Of a stretch of DNA of 64,000 nucleotides, positions 3 through 30,940 are shown piece after piece. Position 1 is the stretch's first letter. Each line of letters opens with the position of its first letter. Made by a program: the position numbers and the translations under genes. The notes under the pieces were generated by a model. That model did not search any database. It was not told the DNA's origin and was given only the letters and a program-made list of their open reading frames with translations. Location of the stretch: NCBI GenBank assembly GCA_020441005.1, contig JAGRNA010000061.1:1-64000 (forward strand). The letters are read 5' to 3'. Source of the stretch: Leptospiraceae bacterium (GTDB lineage: Bacteria; Spirochaetota; Leptospiria; Leptospirales; Leptonemataceae).

Positions 3-779
3 CCAGGACTAGAGACCCGGCATCCGGTTGCGGCGGAACGCTATGAAATCCGGCTGCCCGAGAGTCAAAAATTAGTCGAGCAGCCCAGGTCCAATGAAAC
101 TGCTGAGCAATCCCGGGCAATCGAACCCGCGATTCCAGGTCCGCTGCCGCTTGAAAACAAACCAGAGCAGGCCCGGCCGGCTGGTGATGCTGCAGAGATC
201 AATACTGCCTTTTTGCCGCGGCGCCATTTTGGTACAGTATTCCAGACCTATATTCTGGCTGAAGGTGATGGTGAGTTCTATATCGTTGATCAGCATACGG
301 CGCATGAAAGAATCAATTATGAGCGTAAAAGGCGCGCACTGCTGCAGCGTGAATGCCAGCGTCAGGCGCTGTTGGTACCGCAAAGCATTGAATGCACGGT
401 GGATGAAAAGGAGCGCTACCTGGAGCATGCAGACCAGTTTGCCGCTGCCGGCTTTTTGATCGAGGAATACGGCCCGGGTACGATTGTCGTTCGTGAAGTC
501 CCTGACTATATCAGTGCTGCGGATACTAGTGAGATATTACAGCATCTGCTGCAGCGGCTGCTCGATGGTGAAGACGCGGTGACACTGTATGACGACTATA
601 CGGCGATGAAAGCCTGCAAGGCATCCATAAAAAAGAATGATCATGTAGCCGGCGGGGTATTGTCTTCCATTTTGGCCGAGCTGGCGCGTTGCGAAAATCC
701 GGCGCGTTGCCCGCATGGCCGGCCGACCATGATGCGGATCACTCAGGCAGAACTGGATCGTTTATTCCATCGCAGCTGA
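3..779 (+). CDS. mutL: DNA mismatch repair protein MutL, C-terminal part (5' end outside window)
   Basis: The reading frame is open from the window edge, so the ATPase N-terminus lies upstream and only about 258 C-terminal residues are present. A proline/glutamate-rich linker (roughly the first 65 residues) leads into the MutL C-terminal dimerisation/endonuclease domain. The metal-binding motif DQHTAHERINYE fits the DQHA-x2-E-x4-E endonuclease signature with one A-to-T change. The CKAS segment and the CPHGRP motif near the end are the other conserved endonuclease-site elements. In this family these residues nick the daughter strand in species without MutH. The protein ends with the usual leucine/phenylalanine-rich helix. 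The coaC gene follows on the same strand about 80 bases later. Confidence 0.95.
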   Translation, partial: PGLETRHPVAAERYEIRLPESQKLVEQPRSNETAEQSRAIEPAIPGPLPLENKPEQARPAGDAAEINTAFLPRRHFGTVFQTYILAEGDGEFYIVDQHTAHERINYERKRRALLQRECQRQALLVPQSIECTVDEKERYLEHADQFAAAGFLIEEYGPGTIVVREVPDYISAADTSEILQHLLQRLLDGEDAVTLYDDYTAMKACKASIKKNDHVAGGVLSSILAELARCENPARCPHGRPTMMRITQAELDRLFHRS

Positions 780-3973: not shown

Positions 3974-5548
3974 ATGACAGCAATTTACGCAATTCTGGGA
4001 CTTCTGCTATTCGGGGCTTTGATCGCAATTCTATACTATTTTTTAGTATATGATCGCGGCAGCGTTTTTGAGCGCGCACTCCACCTGGCTCAGAACGGCA
4101 ATTATATGGATGCCCGCGGCATTATTCGCAGCCGCATCAGTCGCGATCCGGATAATGTGAAAGGACACTTTTATTTGGCCCGCATTTATAATATGGAGGG
4201 CAACCAGGACCAGGAGTTGGAACATCTGCTGGAGATACAGCGTATCAATCGCTTCGTTGGCGAAGTTCATGCCGTGGAAGTCATCCTGCGCATTGCACAG
4301 ATTTATTATCAGCGCGATCAATACCCCCAGGCATTTGAGAATTTCATGGCTGTTCTGCAATTCGACCAAAAAAACGAACATGCTTTGGCCCATATCGCTT
4401 TTTTGGCCGCCGGTCAGGCGGAATTTGATACGGCCGTTCGCTATTTCAATCGCCTGGTACGGGTTGCGCCCAATAAGGTGGATTATCGCATCGCTCTGGC
4501 AGTCTGTCAGGCAATGGTCAAAAAAGGGAAGGAAGCCAGCGAAGCTTTTCAACTGGCACTGGCCCAGGATAACACCAATCAGACGGGCAGTTTTCTGGCC
4601 GCCTTGCATGCATTCAGGAGCGGCGATCCGGCAACCGCCCTGGAGTTGGTGGAGGAGTTGCTGGCCCACCTGACCGATCCTATGATCCTGTATCTGGGTC
4701 GTAAAATGGCCTGCGCCAGCTGGTATTTAAAGAAGGACTTCAAGAAGGCGCTATCCTACGCGGAGCAGTGCCTGCAAATGGCCGCGGAATTTCATTGGAC
4801 GGATGAGGAATACGATGCGCGTCTGGCGGTGGCCTATATGGCCATGTGGAGCGGCGATCTGGAAAAAGCCAATGACCATCTGTTACAGCTGGAAGTGAAT
4901 AATCCCGCTGACCAAACGGTACTGCGAGTGGCCGATTTCCGAATGGACCTGGAAGAGCAGGTGGCCCGGCTGGACGAAATCAGTCCCCGTAATTTTGATT
5001 TTGTGGCCCACATGCAAGATTGGGTGCGTTTTCGGTTTGCCGAGGATTTGATCTATAAAATCTCCGGGTTGCGTCAGAGTGTCAGTTTTGATGTATTAAG
5101 CTTTTTCACCCAGGATGGTCAGGAAAAGAGCATTCGCGACAAAAAAAATGAGTTTGATCCCAGTGAGTTGATCAATCGATTTAACTCGCTGAGCGGGGAC
5201 GCCTTTCATATGGCTTGCGAACGCATCATTGCGTCACAGGGATTTAAAGTTAAAAAGGAATTAAAGAAATCAGACAAGGATGGCCTTGATTTTCTAACGC
5301 AAAGCGTTACGGACAAGAAGGTCATGGCGCTCTTTCGTATTCGGCAGTGGTCCAACCAGCCGATCTCGGATATATTTATTCGTGATCAACAAAACTACAT
5401 GAATGAACACAAGGCCAGTCTGGGCTTTGTGGTCGCTGGTGCCAGGCTAACTCCAGGGGCAGAGGCGGCCCTGCAGAACCTGAAAAAGGTGACTGTGATC
5501 AACGACAAGGCGCTGGGGCTTTTATTACAATCGACGATGGGCGCCTGA
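3974..5548 (+). CDS. Membrane-anchored TPR protein with degenerate Mrr-type nuclease domain
   Basis: 524 residues. One N-terminal membrane segment (about 4-26) is followed by a TPR array from about 30 to 330; repeats such as AFENFMAVLQFDQKNEHALAHIA are clear. The C-terminal 120 residues resemble the Mrr/restriction-endonuclease fold: a helix with FHMACERIIASQGFKV, then KKSDKDGLDFL in place of the usual GGxGxD-I, then a strand where the catalytic Q-x-K would lie but which reads ALFRIRQ, and a GFVVAGARLTPGAEAAL segment equivalent to the Mrr strand-helix. The loss of Q-x-K suggests a non-catalytic binding module. It ends 10 bases from the convergent fmdB-like gene. Confidence 0.75.
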   Translation: MTAIYAILGLLLFGALIAILYYFLVYDRGSVFERALHLAQNGNYMDARGIIRSRISRDPDNVKGHFYLARIYNMEGNQDQELEHLLEIQRINRFVGEVHAVEVILRIAQIYYQRDQYPQAFENFMAVLQFDQKNEHALAHIAFLAAGQAEFDTAVRYFNRLVRVAPNKVDYRIALAVCQAMVKKGKEASEAFQLALAQDNTNQTGSFLAALHAFRSGDPATALELVEELLAHLTDPMILYLGRKMACASWYLKKDFKKALSYAEQCLQMAAEFHWTDEEYDARLAVAYMAMWSGDLEKANDHLLQLEVNNPADQTVLRVADFRMDLEEQVARLDEISPRNFDFVAHMQDWVRFRFAEDLIYKISGLRQSVSFDVLSFFTQDGQEKSIRDKKNEFDPSELINRFNSLSGDAFHMACERIIASQGFKVKKELKKSDKDGLDFLTQSVTDKKVMALFRIRQWSNQPISDIFIRDQQNYMNEHKASLGFVVAGARLTPGAEAALQNLKKVTVINDKALGLLLQSTMGA

Positions 5549-9812: not shown

Positions 9813-9840
9813 TAAAGGTGCTGCTTCCGCCTCCCGATAG
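9813..9840 (+). promoter_or_regulatory. FliA (sigma-28)-like promoter of the first flagellin gene
   Basis: TAAAGGTG (9813-9820), 12 bases, then CCCGATAG (9833-9840), compared with the consensus TAAAGTTT-N11-GCCGATAA. Spacing is one base longer than consensus. The leader to the flaB start is about 120 bases. The rest of 9623-9961 holds no gene I can support; it includes poly-A and poly-T runs around 9775-9802. Confidence 0.6.
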
Positions 9841-9961: not shown

Positions 9962-10810
9962 ATGATCATCAACCACAACCTCAGTGCGATTAATTCGCAC
10001 CGAACATTAAAGTTCCAGAATTGGGAAGTCAGCAAGAACATGGAAAAGCTGTCTTCCGGTATGCGGATCAATCGCGCTGGCGATGATGCTTCTGGTCTGG
10101 CGGTGTCTGAAAAGATGCGCACGCAGATCAACGGCCTCAGGCAAGCCGAACGCAATACCGAAGACGGTATGTCCATGATTCAGACCACCGAAGGCTACTT
10201 GCAGGAAATCAACGATATTCTGCAGCGGGTCCGTACTTTAGCGGTGCAGGCGTCCAACGGGATTTACACCGCCCAGGATCGCCAAATGATCCAGGTGGAA
10301 GTTTCCCAACTCATTGATGAAGTGGACCGCATCGCTTCACAAGCTGAATTCAACAAGCAGGATTTGCTGTTGGGTCAGTTTGCGCGCGGTTCGCGAGTTT
10401 CCTCAATGTGGTTCCATGTTGGTCCCAATCAGCATCAGCGTGAGAGGGTCTTCATTGCGACCATGACCGCCCAGGCCTTGAGTCTGAAAACTGCGGATGG
10501 CAATTTTCAGGCGAATCTGTCGACTGCTGAATCGGCCAATATCTCGATCGGCGTTGTAGACGATGCCTTGCACAAGGTAAACAAGCAACGCGCGGATTTG
10601 GGAGCCTATCAGAATCGACTCGAGCATGCCGCCAAGGGTCTCATGGTTGCGTATGAGAATACCCAGGCATCGGAAAGCCGCATTCGGGATACGGATATGG
10701 CCGAAGAGTCGGTAGCTTTCACCAAGAATCAAATTCTGGTACAGTCCGGAACGTCCATGCTGGCGCAAGCTAACATACGTCCGCAATCTGTGCTGCAGCT
10801 GCTGCGCTAA
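9962..10810 (+). CDS. flaB: Periplasmic flagellar core protein FlaB (copy 1)
   Basis: 282 residues. The N-terminal D0/D1 domain begins with [14 protein letters not shown] and contains [25 protein letters not shown]; the C-terminal D1/D0 part contains [11 protein letters not shown] and ends in SVLQLLR. The hypervariable surface domain is minimal, as in spirochaetal FlaB. There is no signal peptide; export is through the flagellar type III apparatus into the periplasm. The short central segment [22 protein letters not shown] is typical of Leptospira-type FlaB. A strong Shine-Dalgarno (GGGAGGA) precedes the ATG. Tandem with a second flaB 270 bases downstream. Confidence 0.97.
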
Positions 10811-14075: not shown

Positions 14076-15659
14076 TTATCGGGGCGGTTTGGCTTTGACG
14101 AAGTTGTCATTCGAATTGTTTGCGGGTGCGCGGCCCTTGCGGGTAATGATAACCTTGATCAGCGCCATTGCAACCAGTATTTCCAGGATCAATGCTGGAA
14201 ATCCGCCCAGGTTGGAAAGCATCTTGATGCCTTCGATACCGCCTCGGGAAAGCAGGATCCAGGCCATGGCCCCGATCAAGCTTCCCCAGATAATCTTGAC
14301 CGAAGTTCTGGATTCCGGATTGTCGGGATTGATGCCGCTCGTGCTCATACTGCTCATGGCGCTGGTGTTGCTGTCTGCTGCAGTGACAAAGGATACGAAA
14401 CTGAGCAACAGAAAAAAAGGAATGATAAAACGGGACCATGGCAGGGTCTCCAGGATAGCGTACGTAATCGCCTCGGGGCCGCTAGATTGCAACAGGGTCA
14501 GCAGACCCTGGTGATAAAACTGGATGTGCAGCGTTGTGCCGCTGAAAATTGTGATCCAGCAGATGGCAAACAGGGAGGGCAATAAAAAGTTCATCACAAT
14601 AAAGTCGCGAACTGTGTAGCCGTAGGCAATGCGCCCCAAAAACAGGGCCGTCACCGGTGTCCAGGCCAGCCAGTTGGCCCAATAGAAAACGGTCCATTGG
14701 CGCGCCCACTCGCCATCGGCTCCCTCGCCGCTAAAAACGCTGCGCTCGGCAAAATGAACCAGAAAATCTCCCAGGGATTCCAGGCCGAGGTCGAGCATGA
14801 ACACAGTTGGTCCGGTTATTAAAACAAAAAGTATTAAAAAAATAAAAAACTTTACATTGAGATCCGATAGAATGCGGATCCCTTTCATCAGACCCGAGGA
14901 AGCCGAAATCACAAAGGTGCAAACGACCAGCCCAATCAGGCATCCATACAGCAGACTGCCTCCAGTTAGTTCCGGCAGGATATGATGCAATCCGCCAGCC
15001 AAAGCCAGGATTCCAGTGCCCAGCGATGCCGACATGCCGGCTACAAGGGTGTACAACGCGATGATGTCAATTAGCCAGCTCCAGCGTCGGGCAAAAGCAT
15101 CTCCCAATAATGGCGCAAGCAGCGAGCCCAGGCTGAATGGCTGTCCCAGATTATAATAGGTGATGGCAAACATCAGGGCTGGCACAGCATAGAGAGCGTA
15201 GGGTGTAAACGACCAGTGCATAAACATGGTGGCCAATGAAAAGCGCATCGCCGAGTATGTATTCGGATTGGCACCGCTACCCTGCGTCGGTTGATTCAGG
15301 TGATACAAAGGTTCCGCCGCTGCCCAAAAGAGCACTCCGATGGCGATTGTGGTGCATAGAATAACGGTAAACCAGCTCCAGCGCGACAATAGCGGTTTGG
15401 CATCCTGGCCACCAATTCGAATCGAACCGAAACGGGTTAAGAATATAATGATGATCAGGACAACCATGCCAAACGCTGTAATGCTAAAGAGCCAGGCGCT
15501 CAGATCGAGCATTTCGCGATTGGTATCGGTGAGCCATTGCAAAAAGTCGCCGGGATAGAGCAGACTGAATAAAACGGAACCAAGGAGTAACAGGAACGGC
15601 GGCCAAAATACCCGATGACGAAACCCCTGCCGGAAGCGTTTTTCTGGATTGGTATTAAT
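14076..15659 (-). CDS. BCCT-family (betaine/choline/carnitine) transporter, probable ATT start
   Basis: Sodium- or proton-coupled uptake of a quaternary ammonium compound such as glycine betaine (family knowledge). Family marks include GVLFWAAAEPLYH, MHWSFTPYALYAVPAL and AADSNTSAMS. The first usual start codon, TTG at 15542, would remove transmembrane helix 1. In the same frame the DNA upstream encodes NTNPEKRFRQGFRHRVFW followed by a hydrophobic helix, the normal BCCT N-terminus, and stays open back to a stop at 15684-15686. No ATG, GTG or TTG lies in that stretch. The ATT at 15659 has a GGGAG Shine-Dalgarno seven bases upstream (15667-15671), so it is taken as the start. Full length would be 527 residues with 12 helices. 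Confidence 0.85.
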   Translation of the reverse strand: MNTNPEKRFRQGFRHRVFWPPFLLLLGSVLFSLLYPGDFLQWLTDTNREMLDLSAWLFSITAFGMVVLIIIIFLTRFGSIRIGGQDAKPLLSRWSWFTVILCTTIAIGVLFWAAAEPLYHLNQPTQGSGANPNTYSAMRFSLATMFMHWSFTPYALYAVPALMFAITYYNLGQPFSLGSLLAPLLGDAFARRWSWLIDIIALYTLVAGMSASLGTGILALAGGLHHILPELTGGSLLYGCLIGLVVCTFVISASSGLMKGIRILSDLNVKFFIFLILFVLITGPTVFMLDLGLESLGDFLVHFAERSVFSGEGADGEWARQWTVFYWANWLAWTPVTALFLGRIAYGYTVRDFIVMNFLLPSLFAICWITIFSGTTLHIQFYHQGLLTLLQSSGPEAITYAILETLPWSRFIIPFFLLLSFVSFVTAADSNTSAMSSMSTSGINPDNPESRTSVKIIWGSLIGAMAWILLSRGGIEGIKMLSNLGGFPALILEILVAMALIKVIITRKGRAPANNSNDNFVKAKPPR

Positions 15660-19735: not shown

Positions 19736-21463
19736 TTATTTACTGGTCAGCTTGAATACGCCATTCCAGCCGCGCGGGGGCGGATTGGATTTCAGGTGCG
19801 CAATCCGCTCGATCAACAGCCGGGATGCGCGGTCGCCCTGGTTTTGCTTTTGGCAATCCTGAAAGAATCGTAGTGCTCTGGCCCAGTCCTGGCCAAAATA
19901 GGCCTGCAGGCCCTGCTCGTAATTATGAATCCATTGCTGCCAGTTCGCATCCGCCTCATCGGCGCTGCTGATGAGTTCATAAATCACAACCGGTTCTTCC
20001 CGGCCTTTGACGGTGATCTGGTCCAGCTTGCGGAAAATAAAATCAGGATGGCATTTTTGGTGCACGGCAGCCGAGACAATAATTTGCGTCCCGTACAGCT
20101 TGTTCACACCCTCCAGCCGTGACGCCAGGTTTACGTTGTCACCCATGACAGTGAAGTTGCGGCTGAATTCAGAGCCCATATTCCCCACAATGACTTCACC
20201 GCTGTGGATTCCGATCCGAAAACGGACGGTCGGCAGATTACGACGCAGACCCAGCAAATCCGGCAGGCGTTCATTAAAGGCCGGCAGGATTCTCTTTTGG
20301 GCCAGAGCGGCCCGACAGGCTAAATAGGAGTGCTCATCGGCCGGGGTAAAGGGGGGCCCCCAAAAGGCCATAATGGCATCGCCGATGTATTTATCGATCA
20401 CGCCATGCTCGGCACGGATCGCCTGGCTCATTTCGCTCAGGTAGGCATTCATCAGGCCCACCAGGCTGCCCGGGGTCAGCATTTCACTCATGGGCGTGAA
20501 ACCGGCTATGTCGGAAAAGAAGATCGTCATTGCCTTTTTTTCGCCGTCAGACAAAGGGCTGCCGTCGGCATCTATTAACTGGTCAACAATGCGCGGGTCC
20601 ACGTACTGACCGAAGGTTGATTTGATCCGCTCTTTTACGCGCAGCTCGGCAATCATTTGATTGAAAGAGCGGGTCAGGCTGCCGAGCTCGTCACTGGAAG
20701 TGACTGGTATCTCGGTTTCGAGGTCGCCGTCACCAATCGCCCGGGTGCCATTCATTAAATTCTGGATCGGCTGTACCAGACGCCGGGTTGTGAACACCGC
20801 TGTCAGAATTGCAATCAGCGATGCCAGCAAGGTCGTGATGCTATTCAATACGATAACTTCGGTTTCATGCCGGCTGGCGCGGTCCGCGGCCAAGGCTGTA
20901 ATCTGCTGGATTTCACTGCGCAGCTTGTCGATTTGCCGATCAAACTGATCCTCTTCGGTGTGTAGATCCGCTTCCAATAGACTGGCCGGTTGGTATTGTT
21001 GATTGCGCAAATGCTGCCAGATGCGTTTGGAATGGTCTTCAAAATCGGCGTAATCTGCGGCGCTGTTTTCCAGCATTAGCTGCAATCTGGCGATATGTAC
21101 CAGTTGATCGGGTTCTGCTGTGATCTGGCGCTGTTGTTCCAGGAGATCAGCCGCATCCTGGAGTTCCGCGCTAGCTTGTTGGCCGCGCTCGGACCACTCC
21201 TTGTGCAGTGTTGCTGCTTTTTGGGTGTTGCTGTGATGAATATGATACTCCTCAATCATGCGCTCCAGAAATATTTCCTGCTCCAGGACATGCGCCCCGG
21301 CGTTTTCAATCCTGCGATCCAGCGGAAAATACACGGTCGTCAGGGACTGCAGTTCCCGGCTGACCAGTCGCGTACGCCAGACAGAGAGCGCCGCCACGAG
21401 AGCCATGATAAAAATCAGCGTAAGAAACAGACCCAGTATTTTTGATTGAATGCTTTTTAACAC
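19736..21463 (-). CDS. Membrane class III adenylate/guanylate cyclase with HAMP domain
   Basis: 575 residues. A first membrane helix (about 8-28), an extracytoplasmic helical sensor to about 185, a second helix, a HAMP domain (PIQNLMNGTRAIGDGDLE) and the cyclase domain from about 310. The metal-binding aspartates lie in FFSDIAGF and GDAIMAFWG, and the transition-state N and R in GDNVNLASR. A C-terminal 80-residue tail follows. Start GTG at 21463. Same direction and 15 bases behind the upstream 162-residue gene, so probably co-transcribed. Nucleotide preference (ATP or GTP) is not assigned. Confidence 0.93.
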   Translation of the reverse strand: MLKSIQSKILGLFLTLIFIMALVAALSVWRTRLVSRELQSLTTVYFPLDRRIENAGAHVLEQEIFLERMIEEYHIHHSNTQKAATLHKEWSERGQQASAELQDAADLLEQQRQITAEPDQLVHIARLQLMLENSAADYADFEDHSKRIWQHLRNQQYQPASLLEADLHTEEDQFDRQIDKLRSEIQQITALAADRASRHETEVIVLNSITTLLASLIAILTAVFTTRRLVQPIQNLMNGTRAIGDGDLETEIPVTSSDELGSLTRSFNQMIAELRVKERIKSTFGQYVDPRIVDQLIDADGSPLSDGEKKAMTIFFSDIAGFTPMSEMLTPGSLVGLMNAYLSEMSQAIRAEHGVIDKYIGDAIMAFWGPPFTPADEHSYLACRAALAQKRILPAFNERLPDLLGLRRNLPTVRFRIGIHSGEVIVGNMGSEFSRNFTVMGDNVNLASRLEGVNKLYGTQIIVSAAVHQKCHPDFIFRKLDQITVKGREEPVVIYELISSADEADANWQQWIHNYEQGLQAYFGQDWARALRFFQDCQKQNQGDRASRLLIERIAHLKSNPPPRGWNGVFKLTSK

Positions 21464-27466: not shown

Positions 27467-27493
27467 TAAAGAAGTACAGAATTGAACCGATAG
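27467..27493 (+). promoter_or_regulatory. Strong FliA (sigma-28)-like promoter before the TPR gene pair
   Basis: TAAAGAAG (27467-27474), exactly 11 bases, ACCGATAG (27486-27493), against consensus TAAAGTTT-N11-GCCGATAA. The CCGATAG of the -10 is shared with the first flaB promoter. The start codon of the TPR gene is 44 bases further on. Confidence 0.65.
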
Positions 27494-27537
27494 TAAAACC
27501 AGGCGTCAAAAAGCCGCATAACCGGCGGGCTCAGTGC

Positions 27538-28563
27538 ATGGCAATCTTTCTGCATAAAAACTATCATCGAATCATCAGATCGTTCTTGCCTGGTGGACTG
27601 CTCCTGATGATTCTGGCTGGCGCGCTAAACTCTGGTCTCTGGGGCCAAAACAAAGCGCTCGAAAGTCCAGCCTCATCAACAACAGGCCAGCCAGGCTCCG
27701 GAAGGGGAAATAAAGCGAGCGCTGATAAAAAAACGACCGCCAGTCAATCGCCGCCAGCAGAGTCAAAATCCAATCAAGGCAAAACAACCGCGCCAAGCGG
27801 AGACGATGGTTCCGGATTGCAGACAGACAAGCAAAATGGCAGCGCTGATTCACCGGGAAAAAAAGAATCGGCTACCGGGGATGTAAGCAGTCCCGCAACG
27901 GATCAAAGGGCTGCAGACAGCGATGCCGGCGCTGACCAGGACACTCCGATTGAAAATCCCAATCCGCTGCTGGTCCGGGCCGAGGAGCATTACTTTGCGG
28001 AACGCTATCATATTGCCCTCAAGCTCTTGAAACGTGTTTTGGACGCGGAGCCTGAAAATATCCAGGCGTATTTGTATGCCGGTGATATCTATTTGATGCA
28101 GCAAAACTACGGGCTTGCAGAAGAACAGTTTCAAATCGCCAGAGAATTATCAAAGAATCCTTATAAAGAATGGTTTCGCCTGGGGCAAGTGCGCTTGCTA
28201 CGCAAGGACGCCGATCAGGCTTTGGCTGCCTTTCGCGAGTCCTATAAGCTGCGGCCCGATATGCATAGTAATCTGTTTTATATGGGGATGGTTTATTATC
28301 AGCTCAAGCGTGACAAGGCCGAGACCATCAAGGCCTGGCGTGAATTTCGCAAACTGAGCCCGAATGATCCGCAGGGCCCGGCTATCGACAAGGCACTCGT
28401 CCTGATCGAGAAACCGGATTTTCAATTCCCGGCCCGGGATGAAGGACCGTGTATTCAGCTGAATACTGCAGCCGAAACCCGGCAGAGCTATAAGCCGGGC
28501 GAAAATGAAAAACCCAAAGAAAACAACCAGACCCAGGGTATCACAGAAGAAGATGATTTATAA
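27538..28563 (+). CDS. Exported TPR protein with disordered N-terminal region
   Basis: 341 residues. Signal peptide or anchor at about 12-36 (FLPGGLLLMILAGALNSGLWG). Residues 40-135 are S, G, K and P-rich and unstructured. TPR units occupy about 140-285 (YHIALKLLKRVLDAEPENIQAYLYAGDIYL seen in two blocks; YGLAEEQFQIARELS). The final 35 residues are again disordered. Preceded by a FliA-like promoter and overlapping the next TPR gene, so the pair may act together in the periplasm, perhaps around the flagellum. Confidence 0.75.
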   Translation: MAIFLHKNYHRIIRSFLPGGLLLMILAGALNSGLWGQNKALESPASSTTGQPGSGRGNKASADKKTTASQSPPAESKSNQGKTTAPSGDDGSGLQTDKQNGSADSPGKKESATGDVSSPATDQRAADSDAGADQDTPIENPNPLLVRAEEHYFAERYHIALKLLKRVLDAEPENIQAYLYAGDIYLMQQNYGLAEEQFQIARELSKNPYKEWFRLGQVRLLRKDADQALAAFRESYKLRPDMHSNLFYMGMVYYQLKRDKAETIKAWREFRKLSPNDPQGPAIDKALVLIEKPDFQFPARDEGPCIQLNTAAETRQSYKPGENEKPKENNQTQGITEEDDL

Positions 28564-30940
28564 GCAAAACTGGATGCAAGCCCATCGGAGGACGATTCAA
28601 GGAATATTGAATGCGATTATTCTAGTGCTCGCCGTTGTACTCGGGGTTCAGGTCCACTCCGCCTGGCAGCAATATCGCCATCCGACTCCGCAGTTCCCTT
28701 ATCAAATCGACTCCGAAATTCATGAATTGCAGCAATTGGTCGCGGCCCATCCCGATAATCCGCGCTATCGCATCCTCCTGGCCGAATTATTTCATTTACG
28801 CGGTAAACGCGATGAGGCGGTGGCTACCCTGCGTTCTGTATTGGCCCTGGATACACTCGATCCAGACACTCGTTATAATACATTGAACCGGCTCTCCCAA
28901 TTGCTACTCGAATACGGACTGCTGGATGAAGCCTGGGAAGTTGCCAGCCAGGCGCGCAGTCTGTTTCCCCGACGGGCGCGGGCCTACAACCGGCGCGGCG
29001 ATGTGCGTTATGAAGCCGGCCGCAAACGGGAAGCGATCGTTGAATACAAGGCAGCCGAAAAGGTAGAACCGGATGACCCGGAGTCCTACGCCCGCCAGGC
29101 CCGTTTTTATGCCGACCGCGGTGATCTGAAAAAAGCAGAAGAGATACTCAAAAAAGCGGTTACCCAAAGCCAGCATAAAGCCCAGGCGTGGCATAATCTA
29201 GGCTTGTTTTATCTGCGACACCGGATGTATGACAAGGGTCTGGACGCCTTGCAACGGGCGGCCGGACTGGCGCCCGAGGATAGTCAAATCCATTATGATT
29301 TGGGCCGGGCCTTCCGTTTTAAGGGCCAAAACGAGGCTGCTCTCCAGAGCTGGCAAAAGGCAATCGGGCTGGATCCGAAGAACAGTGCCGCCTTTGCCGC
29401 CCTCGGTGAGTATTATTATGATCAGGGCGACTATAAAAAGGCTGCGGATTATTTTGCCCGTGGTCTGCAATACGATCCCGGCAATCTGTATATAGAAAGT
29501 CGCTACCGCCAAAGCATTGCCCGCCTGAAAGCAGAAGCTGCCCGTTCCCATCCGGGGGACCAGGAATTACCAGTCTCAAAAAAGAATAGCGCTGCGATTG
29601 AGGCCGGCAGTGATTCACTGGATCTGACCCGCACTGCACCTGACCAGACGAACGATGAGCAGGAACAGATCGCCGCCGAGGCGCGCAAGGCGGGAGTCAG
29701 TAGTTTCAAGAACGGTGACTACGCTGCAGCCGTGGTTTATTTCAAGAAAGCGATTACAGCCCAGCCTGCGGTAGCTGAAAATTATTATTATTATGGTCGG
29801 GCCAATGAAAAACTGGGTCAGACGGATACAGCCCGACAAGCCTACCAGGATGCGATTCAAAGAAATCCGCAGCTGGAAAAACCACATTTTTATCTGGCGC
29901 AGTCAGTTTATAAAAGCGGGGACTACAAGGCGGCGGCCCGCCATTTCCAGGCCGTAGTTGCGCTCAATCCGAAACACAGCAAGGCGCTTTATAATCTGGC
30001 GGTCAGTCAGGAAAAATCCGGCCATACCGGGGCCGCGATTCAGAGTTATCTGCGACTGTTGCAACTCGAGCCGGATAAATGGCAGGCGGCCACCAATCTG
30101 GCCATTTTATACAAGCAAAGCGGTCAGAATCAAAAAGCCGTGAGCCTTTTAAAAGCGTGGCAGGTGAAACAGCCAGGGAACGCGGCAGTTTCTTACCAGC
30201 TGGCCGAGCTGTATCAAAAAGAGGGGCAGTCGAGTGCTGCCTTGCGTGCATACCAGCAGGTAATTCAGGTAAATCCGCGTCATTTTGAGGCTATCTTTAA
30301 CAGTGCTTTAATTTTGGCTGCACAGAAGCAATATTCCGAATCACTGCAATGGCTGGGCAAGGCCGCTGATCTGAAACCAAAGGATGCGGCCGTCCAGTAT
30401 CAGCTCGGCCTGGTGCTCAGTCGCAGCGGCCAGATCCCGGAAGCGCTGGCCGCCTGGCAAAAAGCGCTGTTATTGCAACCCGGCCATGCCGAGGCCACGA
30501 TTGAACTGGCACGCCGGTATGCCAAAGATGGCAATAAACTCGAAGCCTTGCGCGTAATGCAAAGCGGGGTCGGATACAATCCCGGGCATTACCGGCTGCA
30601 ATATAATGCCGGCAATGTTTTCAAGAAATTCGGGGAGTTTGAAGCTGCTCGCAAGGCCTGGAAGCGGGCCATACAATTGCAGCCCAAATCAAAGGAAGCT
30701 TACTACAACCTGGCCTTGATGTACCGCGATAATAAAGAGTGGAGCCGTGCTGTGCGAGTCTACGAAACGCTGACTGCGCGACTGCCTTCCGAGGCGGTGG
30801 CCTGGCGTGAATTGGGATTGATTTATGCGGCCCAAATCAAGGACAACTCCAGGGCAAAGGCCGCGCTGCAAAAATACCTGCAGTTAAAGCCCCGGGCTGC
30901 AGACCGGCCTCGCATAGAATCAGTACTGCAACAATTGTAG
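28553..30940 (+). CDS. Large membrane-anchored TPR protein
   Basis: 795 residues from ATG 28553 (MIYKQNWMQAHRR); an earlier ATG at 28505 is possible. One N-terminal helix (LNAIILVLAVVLGVQV) anchors about 16-18 TPR units in two blocks separated by a polar linker near residue 345-385. Typical units: AFAALGEYYYDQGDYKKAADYFARGL (split here across helices) and AIQSYLRLLQLEPDKWQAAT. Overlaps the preceding gene and shares its promoter. A scaffold or assembly role is likely; the specific one is unknown. Confidence 0.82.
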   Translation: MIYKQNWMQAHRRTIQGILNAIILVLAVVLGVQVHSAWQQYRHPTPQFPYQIDSEIHELQQLVAAHPDNPRYRILLAELFHLRGKRDEAVATLRSVLALDTLDPDTRYNTLNRLSQLLLEYGLLDEAWEVASQARSLFPRRARAYNRRGDVRYEAGRKREAIVEYKAAEKVEPDDPESYARQARFYADRGDLKKAEEILKKAVTQSQHKAQAWHNLGLFYLRHRMYDKGLDALQRAAGLAPEDSQIHYDLGRAFRFKGQNEAALQSWQKAIGLDPKNSAAFAALGEYYYDQGDYKKAADYFARGLQYDPGNLYIESRYRQSIARLKAEAARSHPGDQELPVSKKNSAAIEAGSDSLDLTRTAPDQTNDEQEQIAAEARKAGVSSFKNGDYAAAVVYFKKAITAQPAVAENYYYYGRANEKLGQTDTARQAYQDAIQRNPQLEKPHFYLAQSVYKSGDYKAAARHFQAVVALNPKHSKALYNLAVSQEKSGHTGAAIQSYLRLLQLEPDKWQAATNLAILYKQSGQNQKAVSLLKAWQVKQPGNAAVSYQLAELYQKEGQSSAALRAYQQVIQVNPRHFEAIFNSALILAAQKQYSESLQWLGKAADLKPKDAAVQYQLGLVLSRSGQIPEALAAWQKALLLQPGHAEATIELARRYAKDGNKLEALRVMQSGVGYNPGHYRLQYNAGNVFKKFGEFEAARKAWKRAIQLQPKSKEAYYNLALMYRDNKEWSRAVRVYETLTARLPSEAVAWRELGLIYAAQIKDNSRAKAALQKYLQLKPRAADRPRIESVLQQL

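Follow-up and report, generated by a model that had tools for sequence, protein, structure and literature searches.

A sigma-28-type promoter motif before a spirochete pair of tetratricopeptide-repeat genes, likely counterparts of BB0209–Lmp1 and of TP0470 with its neighbour

In Borrelia burgdorferi, the genes bb0209, lmp1 and bb0211 are described as following one another with overlap (PMC2644780; here and below, the literature is cited from excerpts of the papers), whilst TP0470 of Treponema pallidum is described as carrying EAEEARRK repeats (PMC9531955). Lmp1, a virulence protein of Lyme disease, and TP0470, a repeat protein of syphilis, have been studied in two diseases, the biochemical role of neither is known, and among the matches listed from the open-licence literature we found no paper treating both. 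In the field of periplasmic flagella, BB0236 of Borrelia has been identified as the collar protein FlcD (PMC8609358, PMC11750108, PMC7990780), and the collar of the Borrelia motor is reported to contain densities without an assigned protein, including one that seems to lie at the inner membrane (PMC11750108). Flagellar promoters are also described: in Treponema denticola, the mapped sigma-28 promoter of flaB2 has CCGATAA as its -10 and TTAA as its -35 (PMC9481697), and sigma-28 sites have been predicted 5' of the FlaA1, FlaB1, FlaB4 and FliS genes of Leptospira interrogans (PMC5243855). Here we analyse a pair of genes for tetratricopeptide repeat (TPR) proteins, termed TPRs (short) and TPRL (long), in a 64,000-nt stretch of a Leptospiraceae bacterium (assembly GCA_020441005.1, contig JAGRNA010000061.1, positions 1 to 64,000, forward strand; hereafter the window). 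The pair stands behind a sigma-28 (FliA)-type promoter motif that recurs before its orthologs in related families. The features needed first are the following, in window coordinates:

27467..27493, plus strand: sigma-28 (FliA)-type promoter, -35 TAAAG, 15 nt, -10 CCGATAG (motif match; recurrence 5' of orthologs)
27538..28563, plus strand: TPRs, predicted exported TPR protein, 341 aa, ATG start (Pfam, profile, AlphaFold2)
28553..30940, plus strand: TPRL, predicted membrane-anchored TPR protein, 795 aa, ATG start (Pfam, profile, sequence)
9813..9840, plus strand: comparison site, sigma-28-type promoter of flaB copy 1, TAAAG and CCGATAG with a spacer one base longer (motif match)
9962..10810, plus strand: flaB copy 1 (flaB1), flagellin gene behind the comparison site

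The consensus of E. coli sigma-28 is TAAA and GCCGATAA. The site at 27467–27493 (plus strand) reads TAAAGAAG-N11-ACCGATAG, and we class it as sigma-28-type since its CCGATA -10 lies 15–17 nt from a TAAA-type -35; the end of TAAAG-N15-CCGATAG is 44 nt from the TPRs ATG, and transcription would be expected to start at about 27500. The initial annotation had singled this site out as a better sigma-28 match than those of the flagellins and as sharing its -10 with flaB copy 1, and the observation was confirmed: CCGATAG is identical in the two, the flaB1 spacer is one base longer, and no TAAA-N13-17-CCGATA-type site was found in the region upstream of flaB2 in the window. Across the whole window this pattern occurs three times with 0.33 expected, a count of at least 3 being reached by 1 of 100 shuffles: the matches are the TPRs site, the flaB1 site and one at 14843, which lies antisense inside an open reading frame (ORF) of the opposite strand. 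No second copy of the 27467–27493 site within 3 mismatches exists in the window, and 23 of 100 window shuffles contain one match at this tolerance; because the pattern is the site itself, this self-search is not a significance test. The credibility of the site derives instead from its position, its company (flaB1 and fliS) and its conservation.

With regard to company, FliA is encoded in the same genome (TIGR02479, 288.3 bits against a cut-off of 189.6). The motif TAAA-N14-17-CCGATA has 37 matches in the whole assembly (4.36 Mb) as compared with 40 for the reversed control; the letters alone therefore mark no regulon, and proof of a regulon by genome-wide motif excess was rejected. Thirty-six matches were read in context, that on contig C281 being left out, and 4 of these are intergenic and closely 5' of a same-strand gene: flaB1, fliS (identified by Pfam FliS, 140.6 bits), TPRs and the gene of a 287-aa lipoprotein. 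Six intergenic matches had no same-strand gene called after them in the part of the contig that was read. The gene caller was our own and placed some starts too late, that of TPRs among them; for TPRs the distance is that to the ATG at 27538. A TAAAG start is found in 9 of the 37 matches, including those of flaB1, fliS and TPRs, and these three are the start-proximal TAAAG matches among the 36 read. The idea that CCGATA is a general promoter element was unsupported: starts in stretches of this genome gave 11 with 8.2 expected and 11 in antisense, whilst ordinary gene starts of one relative (G110) gave 12 with 7.7 expected and 10 in antisense. Small excesses on both strands around the pair loci are partly due to the pair itself together with its divergent neighbour.

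The conservation of the promoter was analysed by searching a TPRs profile (A1, 14 rows) against 296 genomes of the phylum and collecting 68 upstream regions, 12 from loci of the own family (f1, in our numbering of families) and 56 chosen among the stronger TPRs profile matches; a script selected the start codons, and the region of L142 spans 33 nt only. With no motif preset, CGATA proved to be the top enriched pentamer in the 70 nt or less before the TPRs start: it is present in 31 of the 68 regions, where 7.0 were expected, the maximum of 200 shuffles was 15 and the antisense strand gave 4. The pentamer is found in 8 of 13 families (f1 9/12, f31 7/7, f12 4/5, f39 3/3, f3 4/11, f23 2/17, f41 1/2, f5 1/2) and in none of the regions from the other five (f4 0/2, f46 0/1, f35 0/2, f19 0/2, f36 0/2). 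Ordinary genes of three relatives show it before their starts at about the background rate (12/90, 5/99 and 2/45; 19/234 in total), and the comparison with 31/68 gives a Fisher value of 2e-11, uncorrected for relatedness. Agreement with GCCGATAA extends to at least 6 of 8 positions in 30 of the 31 sites, five positions being fixed by the selection, and the base two 5' of the core is G in 20 of the 31 aligned sites, which include close relatives. Upstream of the core, similarity to TAAA in the 30 orthologs other than the window peaks at 2.33 out of 4 at a spacer of 15–17, a height reached by 0 of 2000 single-base shuffles; elsewhere upstream it is mostly 1.3–1.8 and approaches 2.0 also right beside the core. 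Similarity to TTAA is higher than to TAAA, at 2.80 with a spacer of 16–18. Taken together, the encoded FliA, the company of flaB1 and fliS and the core with its -35-like block in the orthologs support the sigma-28-type promoter proposed at the outset.

Several TPRs copies that have no CGATA closely follow another gene: this is the case for L082 and L083, which come after a flgJ-like gene, and by eye for several copies of f23 and f35. In one genome (G032), TPRs stands after a run of flgG-like, flgA, flgH, flgI and flgJ-like genes, and CCGATAA lies 5' of the run; in another (G123), CGATA is located 5' of a fliK-flgD-flgE operon. Upstream regions of several own-family flagellins show T[AT]AAG with CCCGAT. 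A side observation concerns genome G013, in which a 304-aa probably exported protein with no Pfam match (L269:15403-16317, plus strand) has ACCGATATTATA upstream, the core of which ends 8 nt before the ATG, the same layout as for TPRs in that genome.

Both proteins are TPR proteins by Pfam, and their genes overlap by 11 nt, which may couple their translation. For TPRs, AlphaFold2 predicts a hydrophobic N-terminal helix (2-34), a disordered linker, a confident repeat domain (approximately 143-290) and a disordered tail, whilst the N-terminus of TPRL displays, by eye, a basic stretch and one hydrophobic segment. Outside the repeats, TPRs orthologs have a C-terminal signature in common (by eye). 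In PDB and fold searches, the highest ranks went to MamA and to generic, designed TPR proteins. When named genomes were scanned with TPRs, one locus was returned, in a planctomycete bin at 27% identity. The pair is spirochete-wide, TPRs and TPRL being neighbours in loci from several families. In four loci from some genera of the own family (L074, L077, L078 and L080) the TPRs domain opens a single protein of 614-707 aa, and no separate TPRL was found beside it.

The phylum also contains genomes from which flagellin appears to be missing: 15 of the 296 have no flagellin match, 12 in f49 and 3 in f45. All 292 genomes searched with TPRL have some match, and the best match has an E value above 1e-22 in every one of the 15 flagellin-less genomes as compared with 5 of 277 others (G010, G054, G069, G093 and G245), a limit that was set after the values had been seen. 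TPRs matches in the flagellin-less genomes are weak or absent as well (best 7e-13).

On this basis a flagellar role of the pair, or an envelope role coordinated with the flagellum, appears likely from the sequence evidence. The specific arrangement that we favour, with somewhat better than even confidence, is a FliA-read two-gene unit for a scaffold in the periplasm, dedicated to the flagella there or to the envelope surrounding them. FliA would read TPRs and TPRL from 27467–27493 late in flagellar assembly, so that the two proteins would be produced at the same time as FlaB1, FliS and other late flagellar proteins. TPRs would be exported to the periplasm, TPRL would be held in the inner membrane by its one N-terminal segment with a long TPR solenoid extending into the periplasm, and the two partners would form a spirochete-wide scaffold that either serves the flagella or adapts the envelope around them.

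A number of findings weigh against this arrangement. At the level of the promoter, CGATA is missing in 37 of the 68 TPRs regions, above all in f23; among more divergent loci it is mostly absent, occurring within 90 nt in 2 of 10 (L224, with an uncertain start, and L235), and within 60 nt 5' of the pair it was found in none of two Treponema-like genomes and one Borrelia-like genome. TTTA (2.70) and TTGA (2.63) also peak near the -35 position in the 30 orthologs, and the -35 alone is therefore compatible with sigma-70; a full TAAA is present, among the 31 aligned sites, in the window only. Flagellin leaders fetched from f31, f12, f23 and f41 contain no clear CCGATA box, so that the sigma-28 consensus in these families is not established. 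(By eye, the leaders of several flagellins from distant families, among L203-L217, have in common a stem-like block near the ribosome site together with TGACGA-like words, not CCGAT.) As regards function, all genomes without a flagellin match come from just two families, in one of which TPR matches of any kind are scarce, and many flagellated genomes (f2, f14, f22 and f38) also have weak TPRs matches; TPRs therefore does not separate flagellin-less from flagellated genomes. Neighbours of the pair in the own family are envelope-like, being LolCD-, DapD- and UDP-glucose dehydrogenase-like by eye and an M14 peptidase by Pfam. The strongest objection to a flagellar role comes from Borrelia, where the lmp1 mutant is reported to be normal in motility and shape in culture, with the data not shown (PMC2644780).

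These last two points are also what speaks for the best surviving alternative, which we regard as possible though appreciably less probable: the pair could be a general envelope scaffold for maintenance of the outer membrane or the peptidoglycan, sharing sigma-28 or read by the housekeeping factor, and making no contact with the motor. The proposal that TP0470 acts in envelope remodelling (PMC9531955) would suit such a scaffold, as would the TTGA-like -35 and GATANT-like -10 seen in part of the orthologs. However, the 15 flagellin-less spirochetes have to maintain an envelope too, yet all of them give weak TPRL matches; ordinary gene starts carry CGATA at close to the background level; and in L082 and L083, the two loci read with flagellar neighbours, TPRs stands behind the flgJ-like gene (Pfam for L082). 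The assembly or anchoring of flagella suggested in the initial annotation is thus a possible role only, with flagellar neighbours in these two loci, envelope-like ones in the own family and an lmp1 reported as dispensable for motility.

We consider it improbable that the promoter is a chance match and that the pair is transcribed from elsewhere: the absence of a genome-wide motif excess and the regions and divergent loci without the core point that way, but the -10 core and the -35-like block recur in orthologs, and the site keeps the company of flaB1 and fliS. The least probable alternative, that TPRL or TPRs is a known collar protein (FlcA, FlcB or FlcD), draws on a shared class of architecture (FlcA is described as a membrane helix plus a periplasmic TPR domain, PMC11750108) and on a Borrelia-like ORF beside a GAPDH-like gene, as fits FlcB, that scores 65 bits with the TPRL profile and 43 with the TPRs profile, and against it stand two assignments that were rejected, those to FlcA and to FlcB: the FlcA model (NF047371) gives 65.8 bits for TPRL and 20.6 for TPRs with a cut-off of 300, and the FlcB-like ORF reaches at most 42 bits per stretch against TPRL compared with 155.7 for the ORF at the lmp1 position. 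A better FlcA candidate of the own genome (G000:C238:8-2272) reaches 80.6 bits over a single stretch, short of the cut-off as well.

Returning to the FliA-read scaffold, one further-reaching version is offered as speculation to which we give a rather small chance: TPRs and TPRL might belong to the collar as parts not yet assigned, or might surround the periplasmic flagella as a sleeve, and sigma-28 would have them built on demand. A flagellar scaffold would then be the ancestor of Lmp1 and TP0470, with the virulence phenotype of lmp1 reflecting a later or secondary use. A flagellar-type promoter before likely counterparts of Lmp1 and TP0470 provides the collar field and the Lmp1/TP0470 field with one shared testable hypothesis, and the flagellar role of such a pair can now be tested directly.

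Other genes recur around the pair or bear on its surroundings in the window. One feature is needed in addition:

3..779, plus strand: mutL, C-terminal part (Pfam MutL_C)

A conserved protein of approximately 390 aa adjoins the pair in two Treponema-like loci (L254:1413-2582 and L253:1014-2183, both minus strand) and is divergent from the pair in f1, where some copies are preceded by a CCCGATAATAGG of their own; further copies are located at L074:8642-9823 (plus strand) and, in the own genome, at approximately 19842-21026 of G000:C273. It has no Pfam match (L074 copy) and no NCBIfam match (the two Treponema-like copies). A third TPR gene of approximately 455 aa, with an N-terminal hydrophobic segment, lies divergently beside the pair in L223, L225, L226, L228, L229, L253 and L254 and often has a phosphoesterase-like gene behind it (by eye); in the own genome it is located at G000:C256:12172-13533, on the contig of another flaB. 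The window gene at 3974-5548 was considered as this third TPR gene and rejected, with 68 bits as compared with 392 for the C256 ORF. It encodes a 524-aa TPR protein, apparently membrane-anchored, a few genes from mutL and flaB1, and its C-terminal part resembles by eye a restriction-endonuclease fold.

Comparison with described systems leads back to Borrelia and Treponema, and here the pair is likely the counterpart of BB0209–Lmp1 and of TP0470 with its downstream TPR neighbour, a reading that relies mainly on gene order. In BB0209–BB0210 (Lmp1)–BB0211 (MutL), the gene of a short, putatively exported TPR protein overlaps that of a long TPR protein with a membrane segment, as in the window; in Borrelia, mutL follows. 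The same arrangement occurs in L255, Borrelia-like as judged from its gene content, where a short TPR ORF overlaps a 778-aa TPR ORF by 8 nt, with mutL next in line; in that genome no ORF matches TPRL better than the long one at the position of lmp1 (155.7 bits, next ORF 137.4), and the reverse search with the Borrelia-like long protein places TPRL first in the genome of the window, narrowly (54.6 against 53.8 bits). By eye mutL also adjoins the TPRL counterpart in L223, L225 and L228. There are differences: in the window, mutL shares the contig with the pair but lies 27 kb away; the BB0209-like ORF attains only 6 bits with the TPRs profile; B. burgdorferi Lmp1 carries 54-aa repeats in its centre and is described as exposed on the surface (PMC2644780); and Borrelia is stated to have no sigma-28 (PMC12655853), so that regulation of the pair, and perhaps its use, may differ there. 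In the T. pallidum-like locus (L254), the gene of a short, putatively exported TPR protein likewise overlaps that of a longer TPR protein carrying a membrane segment; the species was deduced from the 17 EAEEARRK repeats of the short partner, and the reverse search with the Treponema-like long protein again returns TPRL first by a narrow distance (60.8 against 53.8 bits). However, the charged repeat helix of TP0470 is absent from the window TPRs, and the short gene scores only 33 bits with the TPRs profile and has no CGATA within 60 nt upstream. The initial annotation had described the pair as lacking any assigned role, which remains apt for its biochemical function, although the likely counterparts already carry names.

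With the collar proteins FlcA–FlcD of Borrelia (PMC8609358, PMC11750108, PMC7990780), the pair would share the nature of exported or membrane-anchored TPR proteins of periplasmic flagella, and it differs in that TPRL falls below the cut-off of the FlcA model and the own genome holds another FlcA candidate. PflA and PflB of Campylobacter, a soluble periplasmic and an inner-membrane-anchored TPR protein that act as motor scaffold (PMC7990780), offer an analogy of layout only. As for the promoter, CCGATAA and TTAA of T. denticola flaB2 resemble many of the TPRs ortholog sites; the start of flaB2 has been mapped, whereas that of TPRs is a prediction.

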